From Novosphingobium sp. (GTDB lineage Bacteria; Pseudomonadota; Alphaproteobacteria; Sphingomonadales; Sphingomonadaceae), in contig JANXSP010000099.1 in the NCBI GenBank assembly GCA_025356575.1, positions 1 through 64,000 of the forward strand: a stretch of DNA of 64,000 nt, given 5' to 3'. Made by a program: the position numbers and the translations under genes. Numbering within the stretch: position 1 is the first letter of the stretch; each line of letters starts with the position of its first letter. The notes beneath the pieces are model-generated. The model worked only from the letters and a program-made list of their open reading frames with translations. It was not told where the DNA came from and searched no databases. Of this stretch, positions 7,640 to 54,888 are shown one piece after another.

Positions 7640-10206
7640 CAGAAGTTGTAGCGCGCCTTGACCAGCCAGCTCATCGGCGGGTTGAGGTAGGTGTAATTGC
7701 CCAGCGAGGACTGCACGAAAGTCGTGTTGAAGCAGTTGGTGCACTCGACCGACAGCTTGATCGCATTGCCCGGCGCGGACAGGGCGATGCCGCCGTTGAC
7801 GAGCCAGTGCGCCGCGCTGCGCGATCCGAAGATCGTGGTGCCGGAATTGAGGTTGTTGGGGAAGGTCCCGTTGGTGCCCGTTATCGCGCCGCTGAAGATC
7901 GTGATGTTGGATGTCCCGACCTCCATCTGCGAGCTGTAGCTGGCGGCGACCGATGGCGTGATCGCCCACCCGCCCGACATCTCCGCGCGGTAGCTGCCGC
8001 CCAGCGAGAAGGTCCAGTCGGGGGTGCGGACCGGTTCCGCAATCGTGCCCTGAGCGGTGACGATGCCCGAGGCGCAGCTCGAGATCGGCGGGTTGGTCGC
8101 GGGCAAATTGGCTCCGCCCGGAACCTTGCCCGCTGCCAGCGCCAGCTTGCAGTTGGCGAGCTGGGTGGCGACTGACTGGATGCCGTATTGATCGAACGCG
8201 GGCTGGCCGGTCTTGAGCACGTAATGATCGCGCGAATAGCCCAGATTGGCGAACAGGTTGAGCCCGTGGGCGGGCGCCAAGGTCAGTTCCGCCTCGACCC
8301 CGCGGTTGCGGTAATCGGCGAAGTTGCGGGTGATGAAGCTAAGCGATCCGCTGGCATTCACGAACGCCGACGGGGTCTGCAGGTCCTTTACATCGAGCTG
8401 GAAGACACTGACGTTGAGCCGGGCGATCCGGTCGAGCAGCGTCGCCTTGAACCCCGCTTCATAACTCCACACTTTTTCCGGACCGAACGGCAGGATCCGC
8501 ACAGGCGAGGTTTCTCGAGCGTTCCAGCCGCCCGACTTGAACCCGCGCGTTGCTGAAACGAACAGCAGCAGGTTGTCGCTCGGCTTGGCATTGATTGCGA
8601 AGCGCGGGGTCCAGATTTTGGTCTCGAGCTTGGTCGGGATCGCCTGCGCGGTCAGCACCGTGGTGCCGTTGGCGGGGACGATCAGGTTGGCGGTGTCGAG
8701 GCAGCTGACGGGAAGCGGCGCCACTGCGCAAATCGCGCGGTTGTCGTGAAAATCGAGCCGCTTGATCTCGTCGGTATAGCGGATGCCCGCGGTGAACTTG
8801 AGGATCCCGACATTGACGTCGGCCTGGAAATACCCCGCCACGGCGTTGGTCGAATTGCGCAGGATGCGGTCTCCCAGGACCGCCGCGCCCGTGGCCGTAG
8901 TCGTGCCGAGGATGTCGGCGAAATCGTCGGACACGTTCTCATGGATATAGAACACCCCGCCGACGTAATCGATCAGCCCGCTGCCGGCGCTGCCCGACAG
9001 CTTCACTTCCTGACTGAACTGGTTCGATTGCTGATCGGCCAAAAAGGTGAAGCCGCCCTTGGGCAACTGCAGCGGGGTCGGATACGCGTTGGCGATCGAC
9101 GGGGCATTCGAACTGCGCCCGTCGAAGAAGTCCAGCCCGTACTGCTGGACCTGGTTCACGAACCCGGTGATCAGGCTGAGCGTCCCCAGGCTACCCACGC
9201 CGATGTCGAACTTGGAGGTGATGAGGTCGCTGTCGTTCCTGACCCCCAGGCCATAGTTCGCCTTTCGTCCGTGGATGTTGAGACCGGCAAAAGTGCCCGG
9301 CACCTTGCTCAGCCCAGTGCTGGAATAGCGGCCGTTGCACTGCGCCAGGTTCAGCGGGTTGCACACGAAGTTGAGGATATTCTCGCCGTCGGCAACGATG
9401 TGCGCGTAGCTGCCCTGCCATTTCACCGACGGCGAAAGATCCCCGCGCAGACCCAGCCGCACGCCCCAGCCATCGTCGTCGTTGAGCCGCTGGCCGGTGG
9501 TGACGTTCTTCACGTAGCCATCGTCGTTCTGGTAATAGCCCGAAACCTTGGCCGAAAACCCAGGCGCGAGCGGCACGTCGATCGAGCCGCGGGCAAGCAC
9601 TTTGTTCCACCGTCCATAACCGACCTCGGCATAACCGCCGAGCACGTCCTTGGGCTGCGCCATGATCACGCTGATCGCGCCGCCGGTGGTGTTCCGCCCG
9701 AACAGGGTGCCCTGCGGCCCGCGCAGGACTTCCACCCGCTCGACATCGAACAGCGACAGGTTGTTGGCGTTCTGGCGCGACAGGTAGACTTCGTCGACAT
9801 ACGTGCCGACGGGCGGATCGTACGTCGGGATCGTCTCGGTCGAACCCAGACCGCGCAGATAATAGGCGTTGGCGCTGCCGAGCCCGGTATTGTTCATCGC
9901 GGTGAGATTGGGGACGAACTGTGCGATCTGCAGCGCGTTCGAAATGCCGCGTTCCTCGAGCTGCTGCTGGCCGAGCGCGGTGATCGAGATCGGCACGTTC
10001 TGGACATTCTCGCTGCGGCGCTGCGCGGTGACGATGATGTCGCTGACGCCGTCCTGCTGCTCGGGAGCGGCAGCGGTCGTGGTCGGAGCGGTTGTGCTCG
10101 AGGTAGCTGCGGTCGGGGTAGTTGTCGCAGCAGTCTGGGCGAAAGCAGGAGAAGCGATCAGCGCGAGAAGCGACCCGGCGCCGAGCAGAACGGAACGTGC
10201 CATCAT
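7639..10206 (-). CDS. TonB-dependent outer-membrane receptor 1
   Basis: This 855-residue receptor has a Sec signal peptide (cleavage after about residue 23, ASPAFA), a Ser/Thr/Ala-rich linker, and a TonB box DIIVTAQ at 56-62. A plug domain carries RGPQGTLFGRNTTGGAI, and a 22-strand-type barrel ends in the terminal Phe of KARYNF. Such receptors import scarce or large substrates using TonB energy; in sphingomonads they often serve carbon uptake rather than iron. AGGA lies upstream of tandem ATGs (10206, 10203). An operator copy lies in its promoter (10292-10303). It heads the operon running to 2320. Confidence 0.95.
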   Translation of the reverse strand: MMARSVLLGAGSLLALIASPAFAQTAATTTPTAATSSTTAPTTTAAAPEQQDGVSDIIVTAQRRSENVQNVPISITALGQQQLEERGISNALQIAQFVPNLTAMNNTGLGSANAYYLRGLGSTETIPTYDPPVGTYVDEVYLSRQNANNLSLFDVERVEVLRGPQGTLFGRNTTGGAISVIMAQPKDVLGGYAEVGYGRWNKVLARGSIDVPLAPGFSAKVSGYYQNDDGYVKNVTTGQRLNDDDGWGVRLGLRGDLSPSVKWQGSYAHIVADGENILNFVCNPLNLAQCNGRYSSTGLSKVPGTFAGLNIHGRKANYGLGVRNDSDLITSKFDIGVGSLGTLSLITGFVNQVQQYGLDFFDGRSSNAPSIANAYPTPLQLPKGGFTFLADQQSNQFSQEVKLSGSAGSGLIDYVGGVFYIHENVSDDFADILGTTTATGAAVLGDRILRNSTNAVAGYFQADVNVGILKFTAGIRYTDEIKRLDFHDNRAICAVAPLPVSCLDTANLIVPANGTTVLTAQAIPTKLETKIWTPRFAINAKPSDNLLLFVSATRGFKSGGWNARETSPVRILPFGPEKVWSYEAGFKATLLDRIARLNVSVFQLDVKDLQTPSAFVNASGSLSFITRNFADYRNRGVEAELTLAPAHGLNLFANLGYSRDHYVLKTGQPAFDQYGIQSVATQLANCKLALAAGKVPGGANLPATNPPISSCASGIVTAQGTIAEPVRTPDWTFSLGGSYRAEMSGGWAITPSVAASYSSQMEVGTSNITIFSGAITGTNGTFPNNLNSGTTIFGSRSAAHWLVNGGIALSAPGNAIKLSVECTNCFNTTFVQSSLGNYTYLNPPMSWLVKARYNF

Positions 10207-11165: not shown

Positions 11166-13712
11166 ATGATGCGGACCTTGCGCGCACTGCTGTTGACGGC
11201 GACGATTTTGACCCCGGGCGCGGCATTCGCCCAAACGGCTTCCGCGCCGGCTGCGGCGCCCGCGGCGGTGACCGACACTGGCGGAATCGAAGACATCGTC
11301 GTCACAGCCCGCAAGGTTACGGAAAAACTGTCCGACGCACCGGTTTCGGTTTCGGCAGTGTCGGCGGCCACGATTGCCGCTCAGGGGCTGAACTCGATCG
11401 ACGATTTCGCCCGGCAAGCGACCGGTATCAGCTTCAGCCAGGCGTTCGGGCGTTCGTCCGATCGTCCGGTCATCCGCGGCCAGTCGAACGTGCTCGCGAA
11501 CGTCCAGTTCGGGGTCGAGACCGGCGCGGCCTATTTCGTCGACGGGATTTATTACCAGGGCGATATCCAGGGTTTCGATCCGCTGTCGATCGAACGGGTG
11601 GAAATCATCAAGGGTCCGCAATCGGCGCTGTATGGCCGCAATACCTATGCCGGCGCGATCAACTACATCACCAAGAAATCGACCGACACGTTCTCCGCAT
11701 CGGGCCGGGCGACGGTTGCCGAGCATAACGAATACCAGCTCGCCGGATCGGTTTCGGGTCCGATCATCCCCGGCGTGCTCGGCTTCCGTCTGGGCGGTCG
11801 CCACTTCGAATACGGCGGTCAGTACATCAACCAGCTGACCGGCAAGAAAGTCGGCAAGGAAAAAACCGACAGCATCAATCTTACGCTCGACTGGGATGGC
11901 GGCGACCTGCAGGTCAAGCAGCGCTTTTCGTACCAGCGCGACGACGACGGCCCGTTGGCAATTTTCCTCCAGGGCGCCGCGGCGGACAACTGCAAGCCGG
12001 GCTACCGCTCGGCGCGGTACCGCGCGGTATCGCCGTTCCTGCCAAACGTCCCGGCAACGCTGGGAACCTCGACCAATACCAATCAGTATTTCTGCGGTGT
12101 GGTCCAGCCGCAGCCCAACAATGTGCGGCTCAACACCGATCCGGTGCAGACCCCGTTCGGCCTGCTCGACGGGACGGCGTTCGACGGGATCTACAACCGG
12201 CAGTATTATCTGAGCCAGGTTGCCGACTGGAACATCGCGGGCTCGGGCTTCGTGCTCAGCAGCCTGACCGGCTACCGCGACAACGTGAACAAGTTCGGCA
12301 CCGACAGCGATCACTCCGAATCGTTCTTCTTCTTCGGCCCCGCGGTCGGCGAGCCGGCGTTCGCCAACACCACGCGCAAGGATAGCTGGGATTTCAGCCA
12401 GGAGCTGCGTCTGGCAACGCCGCAGGATCGTCCGATCCGGGCGCTGGTCGGAGTCTATTACTTCAAGCAGGTGCAAAGCGGCACCGACCTGACCTTCGCC
12501 AATCCTGACAAGGGCGATCCGTTCGGCAAGCTTGGCTCGTCGTTCAACTGGCTCGAGGATCGGGCGATCTTCGGTTCGGTGACCGTCGAGCCGGTCCACG
12601 GCCTCTCGATCAGCGGCGAAGTTCGCTATGCCGAAGAACGCAAGAAGCAGATCGACTTTTCGTCCGCGCCGCTGTTCTGCGCCGGCTATGCCGGGCAGGA
12701 TACCGCGTTCAACACCTTTGGCGCGAACAACTGCCTGCCCGAACTCAAGGAAACCGGCACCGATCCGCGCGTGACGATCGACTACCAGTTTCCCGGCGGC
12801 CTGCTGCTTTACGGGATTTTCGCCAAGGGCCGCAAACCGGGCGGGTTCAACGGCGCGGCGGGCGCGGTCGCCACCACCCAGACCGGTCAGCCGTTCATCA
12901 ACTATTTGCCCGAAAAGGCCGAATCGTTCGAGATCGGAACGAAATTCGATGCGCTCGACCGCCACTTGCGCGTCGCGTTCTCGGCGTATCACAACAAGTT
13001 GAGTGCGATTCAGCTGACCACCGCGATCCCCAACCCCAACGGGAACGGTGCCATCACGTCGATCGTGACCAACCAGGGCAACGGGATCACCCAGGGCTTC
13101 GAGCTCCAGTTCACCGCCGCGCCCACGCGTGCATTCACGCTCAACATGGGGGTGAGCTATGTCGACGCGCACTTCACGTCGGGCTGCGACGCCGACCAGT
13201 TCATCCTCAATTCGGGCGGTCTGCGGCCCAACTTCGATACCCGCAACCCGCCCGCCGCTGCGCTGCCGCTGTGCACGATCGCGGGCAACAAGCTGCCGCT
13301 GGGCAGTCCGTGGATCGTCAACGGCTCGCTCAATTACGAACTTCCGCTGGCCGGGGATAACAGCTCGATTGTCTTCAACACCAACTTCAGCTACGAAGAC
13401 AGCAAGTTCGTCCAGGTCCACAACCTGGCCGAAACCGGCGATACGTTCCTGCTCAACGCCCGCCTCGGGTTCAAGACGCGCGGGTTCACGATCTCCGCGT
13501 TCGGCCGTAATCTGACCAACGAGAACTCGGTCCCGCTGGCCACCCGCTGGTTCGACTATCGCTACGGCGCGGGCACGACCGGCCTGCCCGCGGCCTCGAC
13601 CGTCACCTTCAACGGCTCCCGCGCACAGATCGAGACGGGCGCACCGCGGGCGTTCTTCGCGACGCTGCGCAAGGGCCGGACATTCGGCGCCGAGGCTTCG
13701 TTCAACTTCTAA
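11166..13712 (+). CDS. TonB-dependent outer-membrane receptor 2
   Basis: This 848-residue receptor has a signal peptide cleaved after about residue 22 (GAAFA), a TonB box DIVVTAR at 43-49, plug motifs (KGPQSALYGRNTYAGAINYIT), a long barrel and a terminal Phe. GGGGGA lies 7 nt before the ATG at 11166, which is preferred over the earlier ATG at 11151. It is preceded by two operator copies and followed by a strong terminator, so it is monocistronic. Being controlled with receptor 1, it may import a related ligand or a different form of the same one. The ligand is unknown. Confidence 0.95.
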   Translation: MMRTLRALLLTATILTPGAAFAQTASAPAAAPAAVTDTGGIEDIVVTARKVTEKLSDAPVSVSAVSAATIAAQGLNSIDDFARQATGISFSQAFGRSSDRPVIRGQSNVLANVQFGVETGAAYFVDGIYYQGDIQGFDPLSIERVEIIKGPQSALYGRNTYAGAINYITKKSTDTFSASGRATVAEHNEYQLAGSVSGPIIPGVLGFRLGGRHFEYGGQYINQLTGKKVGKEKTDSINLTLDWDGGDLQVKQRFSYQRDDDGPLAIFLQGAAADNCKPGYRSARYRAVSPFLPNVPATLGTSTNTNQYFCGVVQPQPNNVRLNTDPVQTPFGLLDGTAFDGIYNRQYYLSQVADWNIAGSGFVLSSLTGYRDNVNKFGTDSDHSESFFFFGPAVGEPAFANTTRKDSWDFSQELRLATPQDRPIRALVGVYYFKQVQSGTDLTFANPDKGDPFGKLGSSFNWLEDRAIFGSVTVEPVHGLSISGEVRYAEERKKQIDFSSAPLFCAGYAGQDTAFNTFGANNCLPELKETGTDPRVTIDYQFPGGLLLYGIFAKGRKPGGFNGAAGAVATTQTGQPFINYLPEKAESFEIGTKFDALDRHLRVAFSAYHNKLSAIQLTTAIPNPNGNGAITSIVTNQGNGITQGFELQFTAAPTRAFTLNMGVSYVDAHFTSGCDADQFILNSGGLRPNFDTRNPPAAALPLCTIAGNKLPLGSPWIVNGSLNYELPLAGDNSSIVFNTNFSYEDSKFVQVHNLAETGDTFLLNARLGFKTRGFTISAFGRNLTNENSVPLATRWFDYRYGAGTTGLPAASTVTFNGSRAQIETGAPRAFFATLRKGRTFGAEASFNF

Positions 13713-29649: not shown

Positions 29650-30819
29650 GTGTTCGTATCAGCCCTGGCTGCAGCACCGTTGTTGTTCGTTGCACAAGTT
29701 GCTCCCGCCGAAGATCGGATGTCGGCGCCGTCCGTCAGCGCAGCTGAAATCGCCAGCGAGACGACCGGCATATCGTTCTTTGCCGAGGTTGCCGAAGCCG
29801 GAGCGGGCGCGGATGCGGCATTGTCGGAAACGTCGGCCCGGCAGGTCGTAAGCGGGACTGACCTGCCCGAAGTCCCGACTCGCCAATTCCCGGCACTCGC
29901 GCAATTGTCGCCGCAAACAGGCCCCGGCGCGCTGCCCCAACCTGTGTCCATGGAGGACCAGGCCGATAGCGACATCGTCGTCACCGCGCGGCAGGGCGAT
30001 ACCCCCAGCGACCCCATTGCCGGCGTCAACAAGGTCAGCTTCGGCGCGACCCAGGCCGTCGACAGGGCGCTGATCGCCCCGCTGGCCCACGCTTATGAGC
30101 ACGCGATTCCCCGCCCGCTCCGCGACGGGCTGCGCAACGCGCTCAACAACCTGCTCGACGAACCGATCGTCTTCCTGAACTTCCTCCTCCTGCTGAAGCC
30201 CGGCAAGGCCGCCGAGACCCTCGCCCGGTTCGCGATCAATTCCACCATCGGGATCGGGGGCGTGCTCGATATCGCCAAGCGGCGGCCATTCCATCTGCCC
30301 CGCCGCCAGGTCGGCTTTGCCGATACGCTCGCTTGTTACGGAGTGGGGCCGGGCCCGTTCCTGTTCCTGCCGCTGGTCGGGCCCACGACCGTGCGGGACA
30401 TTTTGGGCGGCGCGATCGATGGCCTCGTCCTGCCGACCCTGGTCGGCAAGCCGTTCACGCAGGTCAAGTTCACGGGCCCCACCGCGGTGCTCCACGAGCT
30501 CGATAGCCGGGTCGCGTTCGACGACGAGCTCGAAACGATCAACAATTCGCCCGATCCGTACCTCGCCCGGCGCGCATCGTATCTCCGGACGCAGCAGGCG
30601 CAAATCGACGCGCTTCATTGCGGTCACCATCGGCGGACGACACCCGCACCGGGCCAGCGTGGTCCGGATCCCTCGATCCCCCCGCAGGCGGCGTTGCAAG
30701 TGTCGGTCCAGGCCGCGTTGCAAACCGCGCCGTCGCCCGCCGACCCTGCGGCCTCGTTGCCCGAGAGCGAACCGACGTCGCTCGCCGTGCCACTGCGGGA
30801 AACCGTCGAAGCGCTTTAG
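29650..30819 (+). CDS. mlaA: MlaA/VacJ family phospholipid-transport protein
   Basis: This 389-residue protein has the MlaA core (about 120-330): DPIAGVNKVSF, RNALNNLLDEP, RFAINSTIGIGGVLDIA and GFADTLACYGVGPGPFLFLPLVGPTTVRD split across the domain. MlaA removes misplaced phospholipids from the outer leaflet of the outer membrane. The start is GTG 29650 with AAGGA upstream. The N-terminus has a hydrophobic segment but no lipobox Cys, and a TonB-box-like DSDIVVTAR (106-114) precedes the domain. Longer than E. coli MlaA (251 residues) at both ends, with a Pro/Ala-rich tail. Confidence 0.9.
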   Translation: MFVSALAAAPLLFVAQVAPAEDRMSAPSVSAAEIASETTGISFFAEVAEAGAGADAALSETSARQVVSGTDLPEVPTRQFPALAQLSPQTGPGALPQPVSMEDQADSDIVVTARQGDTPSDPIAGVNKVSFGATQAVDRALIAPLAHAYEHAIPRPLRDGLRNALNNLLDEPIVFLNFLLLLKPGKAAETLARFAINSTIGIGGVLDIAKRRPFHLPRRQVGFADTLACYGVGPGPFLFLPLVGPTTVRDILGGAIDGLVLPTLVGKPFTQVKFTGPTAVLHELDSRVAFDDELETINNSPDPYLARRASYLRTQQAQIDALHCGHHRRTTPAPGQRGPDPSIPPQAALQVSVQAALQTAPSPADPAASLPESEPTSLAVPLRETVEAL

Positions 30820-30844: not shown

Positions 30845-33472
30845 TTACGCCACCGCACTCACCTGCTTCTTGCGAGCGGCGCTTGCGCGGGAGCCGCCGA
30901 CAAGCGTCTGGAGGTCGAACAGGGCGCGGGCCAGACCGAACCCGGACGGGCCGGCAATGTACCGCGACGCCCACACCGGTGAAAACTTGTCCTTGTAGGC
31001 ACGCAGGCCTTCGAACCCGTAGAAACTATCGCCGTGGCGATAGAGGAACGCTCCGGCCCGCGCCCAGATCGGCGCCAGGCGGCGTGCGGCGATCCCTGAA
31101 AGCGGGGCAATTCCAAGGTTGAACCAAGTGTATCCTTCGGCCTTGCCCCATCGCATCAGGTTGATGAGCAGGAAATCCATCGTGCCCTGGGGGATGGCAT
31201 CGCCGTGGCGCATGAGGTCGATGGAAAACTCGCCCCCGGGGGCGGCTCGCCAGATATTGGCGAAGGCGACCACCCGGCCTTCGTGGCGAATGATCGCGCA
31301 ATCGCACCGGGCAAGGTAGGCGGGTTCGAAGCGGCCCACGCTGAACGCCTTTTCCGACTGGCCCTTGGTCTTGAGCCATTGATCGGAGATCGCCCGCAAC
31401 TCGGGAATGAGCGCCGGCACTGCGGGTGCCTTGACGATCTCGAACCGCGCGCCTTCGCGTAGCGCGCGGCGTTCCGAATAACGCAGGCTCTTGCCCTCGG
31501 CTCCATCAAGGGTGAATCTGTTAAGATCGACCATCGCTTCCTCGCCGTATTTGACGAGCTTGAGGCCAAGATCGATCGCCAGGGGAAGCGCTTCGGGTGA
31601 AAGTTGGTACAGCAACAAGCGGCCCTGGGCCGCGTCGGCGCGTTCGCGGATGCGCCACAGCAGATCGGACCATTGTTCGCGGGGCCCCACCGGATCGCCC
31701 ATGACGACCCAGGTGCTGCCTTGTACCTGATACATCAGGAACGCATCGCCGCCGGGCAGTTCGAGAAAGCGCTTGTCGCCGGTCCATGCCAGCATCGCGT
31801 CCGAACGCTCGCTGTGCGCCAGCAGATCGCCGATCGCGGGCGCGGTGCTGTCGCTCGCGGGATCGGGCCGCGCTGCCGGTCCGAACAGCCACACGACGAT
31901 AGCGCCGACCAGCATCACCGCTGCGGCAAACGTTGCGCGCATGGCGCGCGAGGCGCTTCCGCGCCAGGCGAACTGCCACCACAAGTCGCTGTCGAACGAG
32001 ACATGCCGGAACGCGAACAGCGTGATCCAGACCGATAGCCCGACGGCGATCACGCAAGCAGCGATCCATCCCGCCGAAAACGACCGAACCGTCAGCGCGG
32101 TGTGGCGATAGAAGGCCTTGCGCGACCACTGCAGGAACGCGGCGATCAAGCCGAGAAGCAGCGCCTCTTCGAAATCGATGCCCTTCGAAAGCGAGAACAC
32201 GGCGCCGGCGATGAGCAAGACCCGGGTGACCAGAAAGGCGCCGTCGAGCCGTTTGTAGAGCCCCGGCGCCAACAGCAGCAAACCGGTGCCGGCAAGGCTC
32301 GCACCGATTTGCGAAGCCTCGACAAAGGGCAGCGGCACGAACGCACGCAGGGCTTGCAGACGCCCCGGGATCGCGGGCAACGATCCGGAAATCAGCAGGA
32401 CCAGACCCCCGGCGAAGGTCAGGGCCGAAAGCATCATCGGTGCCATGCTGGATACGACCGATTGCGAAAGTTTATAGACCGCGGCCACGGGACTGCGCCA
32501 CGTCCGGTATTCGTTGATCGACACGATCAACCCGGCCACCAGCAGTGGCAGGAGATAATAGATCGCCCGGTAAGCGACCAGTGCGGCAAGCAGATCGGGC
32601 TTGGGAATGCCCGGTAGAGCCGCGATGATCATCGCTTCGAACACACCGACGCCGCCCGGTATGTGAGAGATCGCCGCGGCGATCACTGCAATCACATACG
32701 CCACGAACACCGCCGGAAACAGCGCCAGACTGATGCCGGGGACCAGGAAGAAAAGAGCGGCGCTGGCGGTTACCAGATCGAGTATAGCCACCACCAACAC
32801 GGATATCGCCTGGCGGCGGCTGGGCATCGGCAGCGTCCATCCGAACAGCGTAAGCAACCTGCTGCGGTTTTGGGTCCGCCACAGCAGCACCCCGGCCAGC
32901 GCCACCACGCTCGTCGCCGCCACAACCCGGGCGGTCGTTCCGATCGCGATGCCGGTGAAGGCCAGCGCCGCTGGGTCGATGATCAGGGCGGCGGCCGCAG
33001 TCATCGCTATTCCGGTCCAGAAGGCTCCGCTCGCGATCGCCAGGATCTGGGCGATATGCACCGTGCCGAGGCCGTTGGACCGATAGACCCGGTAGCGCGC
33101 CGACCCCCCGGTCAGCAGCGAGAGACCAAGGTTGTGGCTAAGCGTATAACTGGTGAACGAAGCGAGCGCGGCGGTCCGCCAGGGCAGCGACTTGTCGATG
33201 ATCCACAAAGCGATCGAATCGTACAGGGTCAGCAGGAAATAACTCGCCGCGGTGAATCCGACTGCAGCGGCAACCTGCCAACCCGCGAGCCCCCGCAAGG
33301 CAAGGCGGACATCGCGGAAATGCACCTGCGCGACCAGCAGATGCAGCGCATACAAGCCAAGTGCCGTCAGCCCGACGACAACGAGCAGCCCGGCCGGTCG
33401 GCGATATCGTGCAAGCTTGCGGAGCAAGCGGGCCTTGCGGATCAGCCCTTGTGCCAAATCTGCGATTTGCAA
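30845..33472 (-). CDS. mprF: Phosphatidylglycerol lysyltransferase MprF
   Basis: This 875-residue protein has an N-terminal flippase region with many transmembrane helices (about 30-530) and a C-terminal GNAT-like synthase domain (about 550-850) with FLMYQVQGSTWVVMGDPVG, GEEAMVDL, KSLRYSERRALREG, MDFLLINLMRWGKAEGYTWFNLG (split) and FYGFEGLRAYKDKF. It transfers lysine (or another amino acid) from aminoacyl-tRNA to phosphatidylglycerol and flips the product, raising cationic-peptide resistance. The frame opens at TTG 33472, overlapping the DUF2147 3' end by 31 bp; no convincing Shine-Dalgarno was found, so the start is uncertain. Confidence 0.93.
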   Translation of the reverse strand: MQIADLAQGLIRKARLLRKLARYRRPAGLLVVVGLTALGLYALHLLVAQVHFRDVRLALRGLAGWQVAAAVGFTAASYFLLTLYDSIALWIIDKSLPWRTAALASFTSYTLSHNLGLSLLTGGSARYRVYRSNGLGTVHIAQILAIASGAFWTGIAMTAAAALIIDPAALAFTGIAIGTTARVVAATSVVALAGVLLWRTQNRSRLLTLFGWTLPMPSRRQAISVLVVAILDLVTASAALFFLVPGISLALFPAVFVAYVIAVIAAAISHIPGGVGVFEAMIIAALPGIPKPDLLAALVAYRAIYYLLPLLVAGLIVSINEYRTWRSPVAAVYKLSQSVVSSMAPMMLSALTFAGGLVLLISGSLPAIPGRLQALRAFVPLPFVEASQIGASLAGTGLLLLAPGLYKRLDGAFLVTRVLLIAGAVFSLSKGIDFEEALLLGLIAAFLQWSRKAFYRHTALTVRSFSAGWIAACVIAVGLSVWITLFAFRHVSFDSDLWWQFAWRGSASRAMRATFAAAVMLVGAIVVWLFGPAARPDPASDSTAPAIGDLLAHSERSDAMLAWTGDKRFLELPGGDAFLMYQVQGSTWVVMGDPVGPREQWSDLLWRIRERADAAQGRLLLYQLSPEALPLAIDLGLKLVKYGEEAMVDLNRFTLDGAEGKSLRYSERRALREGARFEIVKAPAVPALIPELRAISDQWLKTKGQSEKAFSVGRFEPAYLARCDCAIIRHEGRVVAFANIWRAAPGGEFSIDLMRHGDAIPQGTMDFLLINLMRWGKAEGYTWFNLGIAPLSGIAARRLAPIWARAGAFLYRHGDSFYGFEGLRAYKDKFSPVWASRYIAGPSGFGLARALFDLQTLVGGSRASAARKKQVSAVA

Positions 33473-52225: not shown

Positions 52226-54888
52226 AACTTGACGCTGCCGCGGACCCCGAACAACCGCGGCGGGGCATAGCTCGCCTGGAGGTTGTTGCCGCCGCCATAG
52301 ACGAAGCGCGTCGCAGTCGCCTTGTTGGTGACGTTGGTGACGAAGCCTTGGATCGAGAATCTATCGTTATAGTCCCACGTCAGGCGCAGATCGAGCTTGG
52401 CGAAAGCGGACTGGCGATCGAGAATCGAATTGATCGGCTGCCCGTAAAACGCGCCCGAAAAGCTGACCTGGGCATAAGGGGTCAGATGCCCGGCGCTGCC
52501 CAGGTCGATCGCGTATTCGATCGCGACGGCACCCGAATAATCGGGCGAATGGGCAATCTTGTTGCCCGACAGGTCGCATCCATACGCGGCACCGGGCTGG
52601 CCGACGCCGCCGGTACCCGGGATCAGCCCGCAGTTGTACCCCACCGCGAAGATGCGGCGCTGGCCCGCAGGCGCGATCGTCACGCCGTTGACCAAGGTCG
52701 GGGTGAGCGCGGTGGCATCGGGGATCAGGATCGAGGTGCCAAACGGCGCGGCAACCTGATCGTACTTGGTGTAGCGGGCATTGAGATAGGCGAAGCTGGC
52801 GTTGATCGTCAGCGCGCTGACCGGGCGCCAGATCGCCTCCAGCTCGGCCCCGTATGAACGCGCCTTGCCGCTGTTCTCGATGATCGAGAGCGTCGTGTTG
52901 CCGACCGGAATCTGGCGCTGTTCCTGGAGATTGTTGTAGCGGTTGTAGAACGCCGCCAGGTTGATCTGCACGGTGTTGTCGGCAAACCGGTTCTTCGATC
53001 CGATCTCGAACGCGGTCACCGTCTGCGGGGTGAAAGTACCGCGGCCCAGCGCCAGCGCGGCTTGACTGCCATTGAACCCGCCCGAGCTGAACCCGGTGGA
53101 AGCCGAAGCATAGAGCAGGTTGGTCGGGGTTGCCTGATAATCCGCGCCGAGCCGCCAGGTGACGCGCTCGAACGTCGCAGTCGGGAAGGTCGCGCCGTTG
53201 AACCGGGTCGGGATGTTGTCCAGGCAGCGGAAGCCGGCCACGGGCAGCGGGATCGACGTGTAGGTGCAGTTGGTCGCCGCGCCTTGGACCCCGAACGAAT
53301 AATCGGGCACCGGCCCGGTCGCGAAGGTTATCGCGGTCCCATCGGGTACACCGCCGGCAAGCGGCAAGATCGCATCGGCGTTGGCGAACTGATAGTCCTT
53401 GCGATCGCGTGTCCAGCGAATGCCGCCGGTCAGCTTGAATTGCTCGGTAAGCGCGTACGTCGCCTGCGCATACGCCGCTATCGAAACGGTTTTCCCGCGG
53501 TTCTGCGAATAGAACCCGCCCGCCCGGGGGCGCGTGATATTGGGGGTCACGTTGCGCACGATCTGGTCGAACTGCTGGTTGATGAACACATCGCGAAGCT
53601 GATCGTGGAAGTAATAGCCGCCGATCACGTACTGCAGTGGCCCGGGCTGCGACGAAAGCAGTTGCAGTTCCTGCGTGAACGTCTTGGCGGCGGAGAACTG
53701 GTAATCCGCGCCGATCTGGTTGCCCGAAAAGTCGGTATCCTGGGTACGGGTGGTGGCGAAATCGTTGTACCCGGTGATCGATTTGAGCGTCACGGGCCCT
53801 AAATCGTAGGCCAGATTGGCGGCAAACCCATAGTTCTTCAGCGCCAGCGTGCCGCGATAGTCGTTGTCGATATGGTACGGATCGCCCGCTGCATAAATCG
53901 GCACGCCGGCGTCGATCGTCAGGGGCGAATCGACGATTCCGTCGCGGTTTCCCGCCCGGGTGTTGAGGATCACCGGGGTCGCGTTGAACAGCGCGGTGTT
54001 GGTCGGGACATAGACATAACTGCCGACCAGCTTGTAGCCGAAGGCCGACCCGCCGATGCCGCCGCGCGCCGAATAATCGAACTTGAGCGTCGCGGTGAAG
54101 TCGCTGCTTGGCTTGAAGGTGATCGCGGCCCGGGCATAGGTATCGTCGTTATCGAACAGGTTGCCGCCCGCCGGATTGATGTTCTTGACGTAGCCGTTGG
54201 ACTTTTCGTAGCCGCCCGCAAACCGCACGGCGACGGTCTCGCTCAGCGGAACGTTGACATAGCCGGTCACGCGGATCTGGTTGTTCGAACCGACGGTGAC
54301 GTCGCCCCCGCCCAGCATCCGGTCCATCTTTGGCGCCGCGGTGACGACCGAGATGTTGCCGCCGAAGGTATTGCGCCCGTACAACGTCCCTTGCGGGCCG
54401 CGCTGGATTTCCACCCGCTCTAGGTCGACGAAACCAAGCGTCCCTTGCGAAGCGCGCGACTGGTAAATGCCATCGACGAAGAAGCCGATCGTGGTGTCGG
54501 CGTTGATCCCGACGTTTTCCGTGCGAACCCCGCGGATCGCCGGACGGGCATCGGTGCCCGAGCGGCCGAAGGTGAAGCCGGGAACCAGGCCCTCGAGCCG
54601 AGAAATATCGGTCAGGCCCTTCTTGGCGATTTCGGCCGAGTTGAATGCCGAAACCGAAATCGGGACGGTCTGGAGGTTTTCTTCGCGGCGCTGGGCAGTG
54701 ACGACGATGTCCGCGATCCCGGACGCTGGCTCAGCCTCGGGGTCGGTGCTTGCGGTTGCGGTTGTGGTTGCCGCGGCGCTTGCCGCCGGCACGGTCTGCG
54801 CAAAGGTCGGGGTGGAGCACATGGCCAGTGCCAGTGCGCCGAACGAAACTTGCGCCGCGCGCTGCTTGGCGAAACCGTATACCCTCAT
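52222..54888 (-). CDS. TonB-dependent outer-membrane receptor 3
   Basis: This 888-residue receptor has a signal peptide (cleavage after about residue 30, TPTFA), a TonB box DIVVTAQ at 60-66, plug motifs (RGPQGTLYGRNTFGG) and a barrel ending in Phe. AAGGGG lies upstream of ATG 54888. Its promoter has a LacI-type operator, not the GntR one, so it belongs to a different circuit. Its stop nearly abuts the convergent LacI gene end. The ligand is unknown. Confidence 0.95.
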   Translation of the reverse strand: MRVYGFAKQRAAQVSFGALALAMCSTPTFAQTVPAASAAATTTATASTDPEAEPASGIADIVVTAQRREENLQTVPISVSAFNSAEIAKKGLTDISRLEGLVPGFTFGRSGTDARPAIRGVRTENVGINADTTIGFFVDGIYQSRASQGTLGFVDLERVEIQRGPQGTLYGRNTFGGNISVVTAAPKMDRMLGGGDVTVGSNNQIRVTGYVNVPLSETVAVRFAGGYEKSNGYVKNINPAGGNLFDNDDTYARAAITFKPSSDFTATLKFDYSARGGIGGSAFGYKLVGSYVYVPTNTALFNATPVILNTRAGNRDGIVDSPLTIDAGVPIYAAGDPYHIDNDYRGTLALKNYGFAANLAYDLGPVTLKSITGYNDFATTRTQDTDFSGNQIGADYQFSAAKTFTQELQLLSSQPGPLQYVIGGYYFHDQLRDVFINQQFDQIVRNVTPNITRPRAGGFYSQNRGKTVSIAAYAQATYALTEQFKLTGGIRWTRDRKDYQFANADAILPLAGGVPDGTAITFATGPVPDYSFGVQGAATNCTYTSIPLPVAGFRCLDNIPTRFNGATFPTATFERVTWRLGADYQATPTNLLYASASTGFSSGGFNGSQAALALGRGTFTPQTVTAFEIGSKNRFADNTVQINLAAFYNRYNNLQEQRQIPVGNTTLSIIENSGKARSYGAELEAIWRPVSALTINASFAYLNARYTKYDQVAAPFGTSILIPDATALTPTLVNGVTIAPAGQRRIFAVGYNCGLIPGTGGVGQPGAAYGCDLSGNKIAHSPDYSGAVAIEYAIDLGSAGHLTPYAQVSFSGAFYGQPINSILDRQSAFAKLDLRLTWDYNDRFSIQGFVTNVTNKATATRFVYGGGNNLQASYAPPRLFGVRGSVKF

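Follow-up and report, generated by a model that had tools for sequence, protein, structure and literature searches.

The MlaA of E. coli forms a ring within the inner leaflet of the outer membrane, and its helix 1 is regarded as the barrier to inner-leaflet lipids (PMC10212509). The gain-of-function form mlaA* is a deletion of Asn41-Phe42 in this same helix (PMC10212509). MlaA homologues that are not lipoproteins have already been described (PMC11131202). TonB boxes are known in proteins other than receptors, e.g. in the flexible N-terminal region of colicins B, M, Ia, 5 and 10 and of klebicin C (PMC11658791). As both ATP and an ion gradient are missing at the outer membrane, how lipid movement is energised there is an open question. 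In the open-access literature searched, no paper was found in which a TonB box occurs together with MlaA or VacJ, or MlaA together with TonB and either sphingomonads or Alphaproteobacteria.

The DNA analysed here, referred to as the window, is a stretch of 64,000 nucleotides from Novosphingobium sp. (GenBank assembly GCA_025356575.1, contig JANXSP010000099.1, positions 1 to 64,000 of the forward strand). It encodes a protein for which the most fitting label is a new MlaA variant with a TonB box. We give a probability of roughly 60% to the reading that this protein belongs to an MlaA branch specific to sphingomonads and has turned into a TonB-coupled outer-membrane lipid channel. A preliminary description of the window had proposed a link between lipid transport and TonB energy for this gene; taken as a whole, its interpretation is partly supported and has been considerably strengthened.

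Architecture of the window protein

The features of the locus and the receptor boxes used for comparison are given in Table 1. The gene begins with GTG, and its product has a single Pfam match, PF04333 (MlaA), with an E-value of 1.1e-49 and a score of 169.2 bits against a curated cut-off of 25, which places it in the MlaA domain family, as the preliminary description had it. The best fold matches of the predicted model are MlaA structures of the E. coli type (5nuo, 5nur, 5nuq, 5nup, 8i8r and 8i8x), with TM-scores by target length of 0.72-0.84, and all of the top 9 Foldseek matches are MlaA (E down to 1.4e-9). In the model, pLDDT is about 90 across the ring domain, dipping to 61-75 around aa 201-220, and is low (about 40-60) in aa 16-120, the box included. 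In blocks 101-120, which hold the box, pLDDT is 52-53, so that the motif is predicted to be disordered and lies directly before the ring. The preliminary description had named lack of exposure as a reason to abandon its reading, and the predicted disorder gives no such reason. With PF04333 only and a helical model, the protein has neither the plug nor the beta-barrel of a TonB-dependent receptor; as an MlaA-domain protein, it departs from the canonical Mla-pathway lipoprotein in both lipobox and MlaC.

Table 1. Coordinates of the type B mlaA gene, its parts and the receptor boxes compared with it
Feature	Position in window	Strand	Basis
mlaA-like gene 'type B' (TonB-box MlaA), 389 aa	29650..30819	+	PF04333 match; MlaA structures as best fold matches
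Hydrophobic leader at N-terminus, aa 1-22; hydrophobic stretch not preceded by K/R, no lipobox	29650..29715	+	sequence
Long low-complexity linker, predicted disordered, aa 23-105	29716..29964	+	pLDDT 40-60
Putative TonB box DSDIVVTAR, aa 106-114	29965..29991	+	receptor-box matrix; conservation in relatives
MlaA ring domain, aa 120-317	30007..30600	+	PF04333, predicted model, fold matches
Ring helix 1, aa 122-152; holds mlaA*-equivalent position	30013..30105	+	DSSP on model; alignment
C-terminal tail, predicted disordered, aa 325-389	30622..30816	+	pLDDT about 44-62
Comparator TonB box DIVVTAR, TonB-dependent receptor (plug 11328-11657)	11292..11308	+	
Comparator TonB box DIVVTAQ, second receptor (plug 54358-54675)	54695..54711	-	
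Comparator third receptor, box DIIVTAQ	plug 9676-10005	-	

A lipobox Cys is absent from the window protein, as had been noted before, and, ahead of the domain, from the whole 58-member clade described below. The earlier statement was right that anchoring must therefore differ, but a missing lipobox is common to the sister MlaA proteins and to the published non-lipoprotein homologues (PMC11131202). By itself it is neither new nor special to the window protein, since the hopanoid-locus sister MlaA also lacks a lipobox. An ordinary lipoprotein with a misread start was considered and rejected, because the leader region has no Cys and, in several members of the clade, the start lies within 0-3 codons of an upstream stop. 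The leaders of the clade (MSLSALxxALxLA-like) are free of Lys and Arg in their first 14 residues in 50 of 57 cases, in contrast to sphingomonad receptor leaders, none of which (0/30) is without K/R. As the clade leader has no positive charge, export remains an assumption; an uncharged leader is unusual for Sec export, and this counts against the TonB-coupled reading. The linkers of the clade consist of 23% Ala, 19% Pro and 1.8% K+R.

Other observations concern the surroundings of the box-bearing protein. The C-terminal tail (30622-30816) has a repeated QAALQ-type segment (PQAALQVSVQAALQTAP). The convergent neighbour at 30845-33472 (-) encodes bifunctional MprF (lysylphosphatidylglycerol synthetase/flippase) and is another membrane-lipid gene; linkage of MprF and mlaA was not seen as conserved in relatives. 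No conserved functional gene neighbourhood of type B was found, a dnaX-ybaB-like context occurring in about 8 loci only, and no conserved barrel gene was seen among the type B neighbours.

The TonB-box-like motif and its conservation

The preliminary description had equated DSDIVVTAR with the TonB box of the receptors in the window, and this is confirmed for the core: the heptamer DIVVTAR of the window MlaA is the same as the box of the TonB-dependent receptor at 11292 (+), and the other two receptors of Table 1 have DIVVTAQ and DIIVTAQ. The genome contains 23 matches to the plug domain and 5 C-terminal domains of TonB, and all 20 of its receptor boxes that were examined follow I-[IV]-V-T-[AG]. 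When the exact pattern [DE]IVVT[AG] is searched in the DNA of the whole genome, 7 sites are obtained, namely four receptors, the window MlaA and two sites in folded enzymes, while the reversed control pattern gives 0 sites. The two enzyme sites, in aspartyl-protease-like and aminopeptidase-like ORFs, were rejected as TonB boxes since they look like chance strands; the former (L145, contig C63:3690) has DIVVTARR between its halves, a full box match in a non-receptor. A scoring matrix built from the 20 receptor boxes of the same genome gives the window motif a score of 20.9, inside the receptor range of 17.5-24.6, and none of the shuffled linkers, 11,600 in number, attains it. Receptor boxes of other sphingomonads lie 9-25 residues ahead of the plug, and 6 of 30 are without Thr at the fourth core position. 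A second MlaA of the same genome (contig C124) has GDAIVVTGR at the equivalent place.

Conservation of the motif among sphingomonad MlaA proteins, which had been proposed as a check, was found in two samples. The first is a tree of MlaA genes sampled across the family and the order to which the window organism belongs; it was computed from domain columns alone, which begin after the motif. It contains a clade of 58 sphingomonad members (SH-aLRT 100), here called type B, and the core motif is present at a steady distance before the domain in 58/58 of them and in 0/84 of the remaining MlaA proteins. Within the clade, Ile is kept in 57/58, Val in 57/58 and Ala/Gly in 50/58, and the columns flanking the core have an entropy of about 3 bits. 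Box and domain are 14.5 +/- 1.1 residues apart (range 11-17), and start and box 83 +/- 25. Seven members have box variants such as EILVTHR, and a simple sorting by regular expression into lipobox, motif or neither places these seven under 'neither' and so undercounts; some outgroup sequences of that class, e.g. L012, L016, L020 and L022, do have a lipobox. For about 14 of the 58 motifs, taken singly, roughly 4% or more of shuffled linkers score at least as well, so that for these the argument rests on their fixed position. The box is also looser than in receptors, as 23/58 type B proteins have Thr at the fourth core position compared with 20/20 receptors of the window genome, and this is a point against the TonB-coupled reading, although some receptor boxes of other sphingomonads lack this Thr as well.

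The second sample is a scan of named genomes, in which loci were fetched by domain peptide patterns and not by the motif; as a caution, the query used to rank candidates by similarity takes in the motif region. The box is found in 80/80 of the loci kept, six of them counted under a wider reading (e.g. DVVVTGR, DIVITGR), and the domains of 69 are not identical to those of the first set. These loci come from Sphingomonas, Sphingobium, Novosphingobium, Blastomonas, Sphingopyxis, Erythrobacter, Altererythrobacter and other genera. In 384 other alphaproteobacterial genomes, the exact-box-plus-MlaA pattern, which misses looser boxes, gave 0 matches. On these sequence comparisons, identification of DSDIVVTAR as a TonB box is well supported.

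Mla components and the hopanoid-locus sister

The strongest supporting fact for the TonB-lipid idea is the absence of MlaC, which the preliminary description had missed. MlaC (PF05494) was counted on 94 genomes of the family with classified MlaA. It is found in 0/40 genomes that have type B only, which are spread over 18 genera, and in 54/54 genomes with any other MlaA (Fisher 1.7e-27, kinship ignored); the window organism's own genome has no PF05494 match. The box-bearing MlaA does not, therefore, depend on MlaC. Nine genomes have type B together with another MlaA and MlaC, so type B is not simply a substitute for MlaC. MlaC is likewise absent from 10/10 of the MlaA-less genomes tested, and a match to MlaE is present in 36/36 genomes tested, with or without MlaA. 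An MlaA match is missing in 81/151 near-complete genomes of the family, and the Mla pathway seems often to be lost in this survey at the level of Sphingomonadaceae. The only MlaE permease of the window genome (G000 contig C19:13179-13811, L175) has a long N-terminal extension (403 aa); an MlaF-like ATPase adjoins its gene.

In the tree, type B is nested beside MlaA proteins of the hopanoid locus (hpnM-mlaA-hpnN), which lack both lipobox and box and whose genes are adjoined by an MlaC-like gene. At L068 (376-2557), a lipobox-less MlaA lies between HpnM (TIGR03481) and hpnN, and the MlaC/HpnN coordinates of G007, G014, G015, G027, G070, G149 and G205 fit the same arrangement. A hopanoid role for type B itself is unsupported, since none of the 39 type-B-only genomes that were searched has HpnN above cut-off. 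The branching suggests that a lipoprotein MlaA became a secreted linker MlaA in the hopanoid locus and that the box was gained later, away from that locus; this order we infer from a tree rooted by midpoint.

Proposed coupling, its rivals and known systems

Helix 1 of the window protein begins at aa 122, 8 residues past the box, and the position affected in mlaA* we take to be about aa 132-133, by alignment and with E. coli precursor numbering from general knowledge. With the mlaA* site in the helix that follows the box so closely, TonB gripping the box would pull the gating helix. Once exported, the protein would lie in the outer membrane, its N-terminal tail reaching into the periplasm, where the C-terminal domain of TonB could pair with the disordered box in the same way as with the boxes of receptors. 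ExbBD-TonB would then pull on the adjacent helix 1, and this pull may open or reset the channel, gating lipid passage by the proton-motive force. Misplaced lipids could then exit the outer leaflet without the classical MlaC/ATP pull. We infer TonB binding and lipid gating by type B, and with them the link between lipid transport and TonB energy, from sequence and predicted structure. Since MlaA carries a TonB box and MlaC is often absent, the proton gradient may drive lipid traffic at the outer membrane directly. Somewhat short of even odds, we would tentatively extend this to the lineage as a whole, in which a directly TonB-driven MlaA channel may have replaced the MlaC/ATP-driven end of lipid retrieval, the proton-motive force acting on outer-membrane phospholipids.

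That MlaA offers TonB neither plug nor barrel counts against the TonB-coupled reading, and the lack of a plug-like element to unfold fits a role of the box in recruitment instead of force. The box would then be a true TonB box that brings MlaA to TonB or to clusters of receptors or competes for TonB, and lipids would move passively. Any TonB-binding role would fit the conservation of the box, and the loose Thr position fits weaker binding; a tether, however, should tolerate more variation in spacing than the 11-17 residues that are held while the linker varies three-fold or more, and we regard recruitment as unlikely. Another explanation is that the likeness to a TonB box is convergent and that the conserved strand binds a partner other than TonB, e.g. 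an outer-membrane barrel, a TolA-like protein or a processing protease. E. coli MlaA does need a barrel partner (PMC10212509), and the motif varies at both the Thr and the acidic position. The core and its polarity nevertheless match the receptor boxes of the same genome, sometimes in all seven letters, and the distance from the folded domain is similar, which makes such convergence quite improbable. That the motif is chance, or a functionless relic of fusion with a receptor N-terminus, is hardly credible: MlaA linkers are Ala/Pro-rich like receptor linkers, but the core is kept in 58/58 and 80/80 sequences across many genera while the linker around it is saturated with change, and chance is rejected by this conservation together with the genome pattern count and the matrix tests.

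If the TonB-coupled reading is true, outer-membrane phospholipids are driven by the same device as nutrient receptors. A natural TonB-box MlaA without MlaC would mechanically connect the proton gradient with lipid asymmetry, and it would extend the clients of TonB among resident envelope proteins past the receptors. The direction and energy of MlaA transport would become testable in a group that can be cultured and is mostly harmless.

Among known systems, E. coli MlaA/VacJ (MlaA-OmpC/F; 5nuo, 5nur, 8i8r) shares with type B the PF04333 domain, the ring fold (TM up to 0.84), about 30% identity and a helix 1 with the DP....N signature. Type B differs in having no lipobox and in the long low-complexity linker and TonB box that precede helix 1, and MlaC is missing from the genomes that have type B only. 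The hopanoid-locus MlaA sits on a neighbouring branch of the tree and likewise has a linker and no lipobox; unlike type B it has no TonB box, and its gene adjoins those of the MlaC-like HpnM and the RND transporter HpnN. Neither of these two was found where type B is the only MlaA. TonB-dependent receptors (PF07715 plug, barrel) have the same TonB box shortly before a folded domain, whereas type B has neither plug nor barrel, so that the box alone is in common. The bacteriocins with a TonB box are toxins imported from outside, unlike type B MlaA, which is a resident envelope protein.
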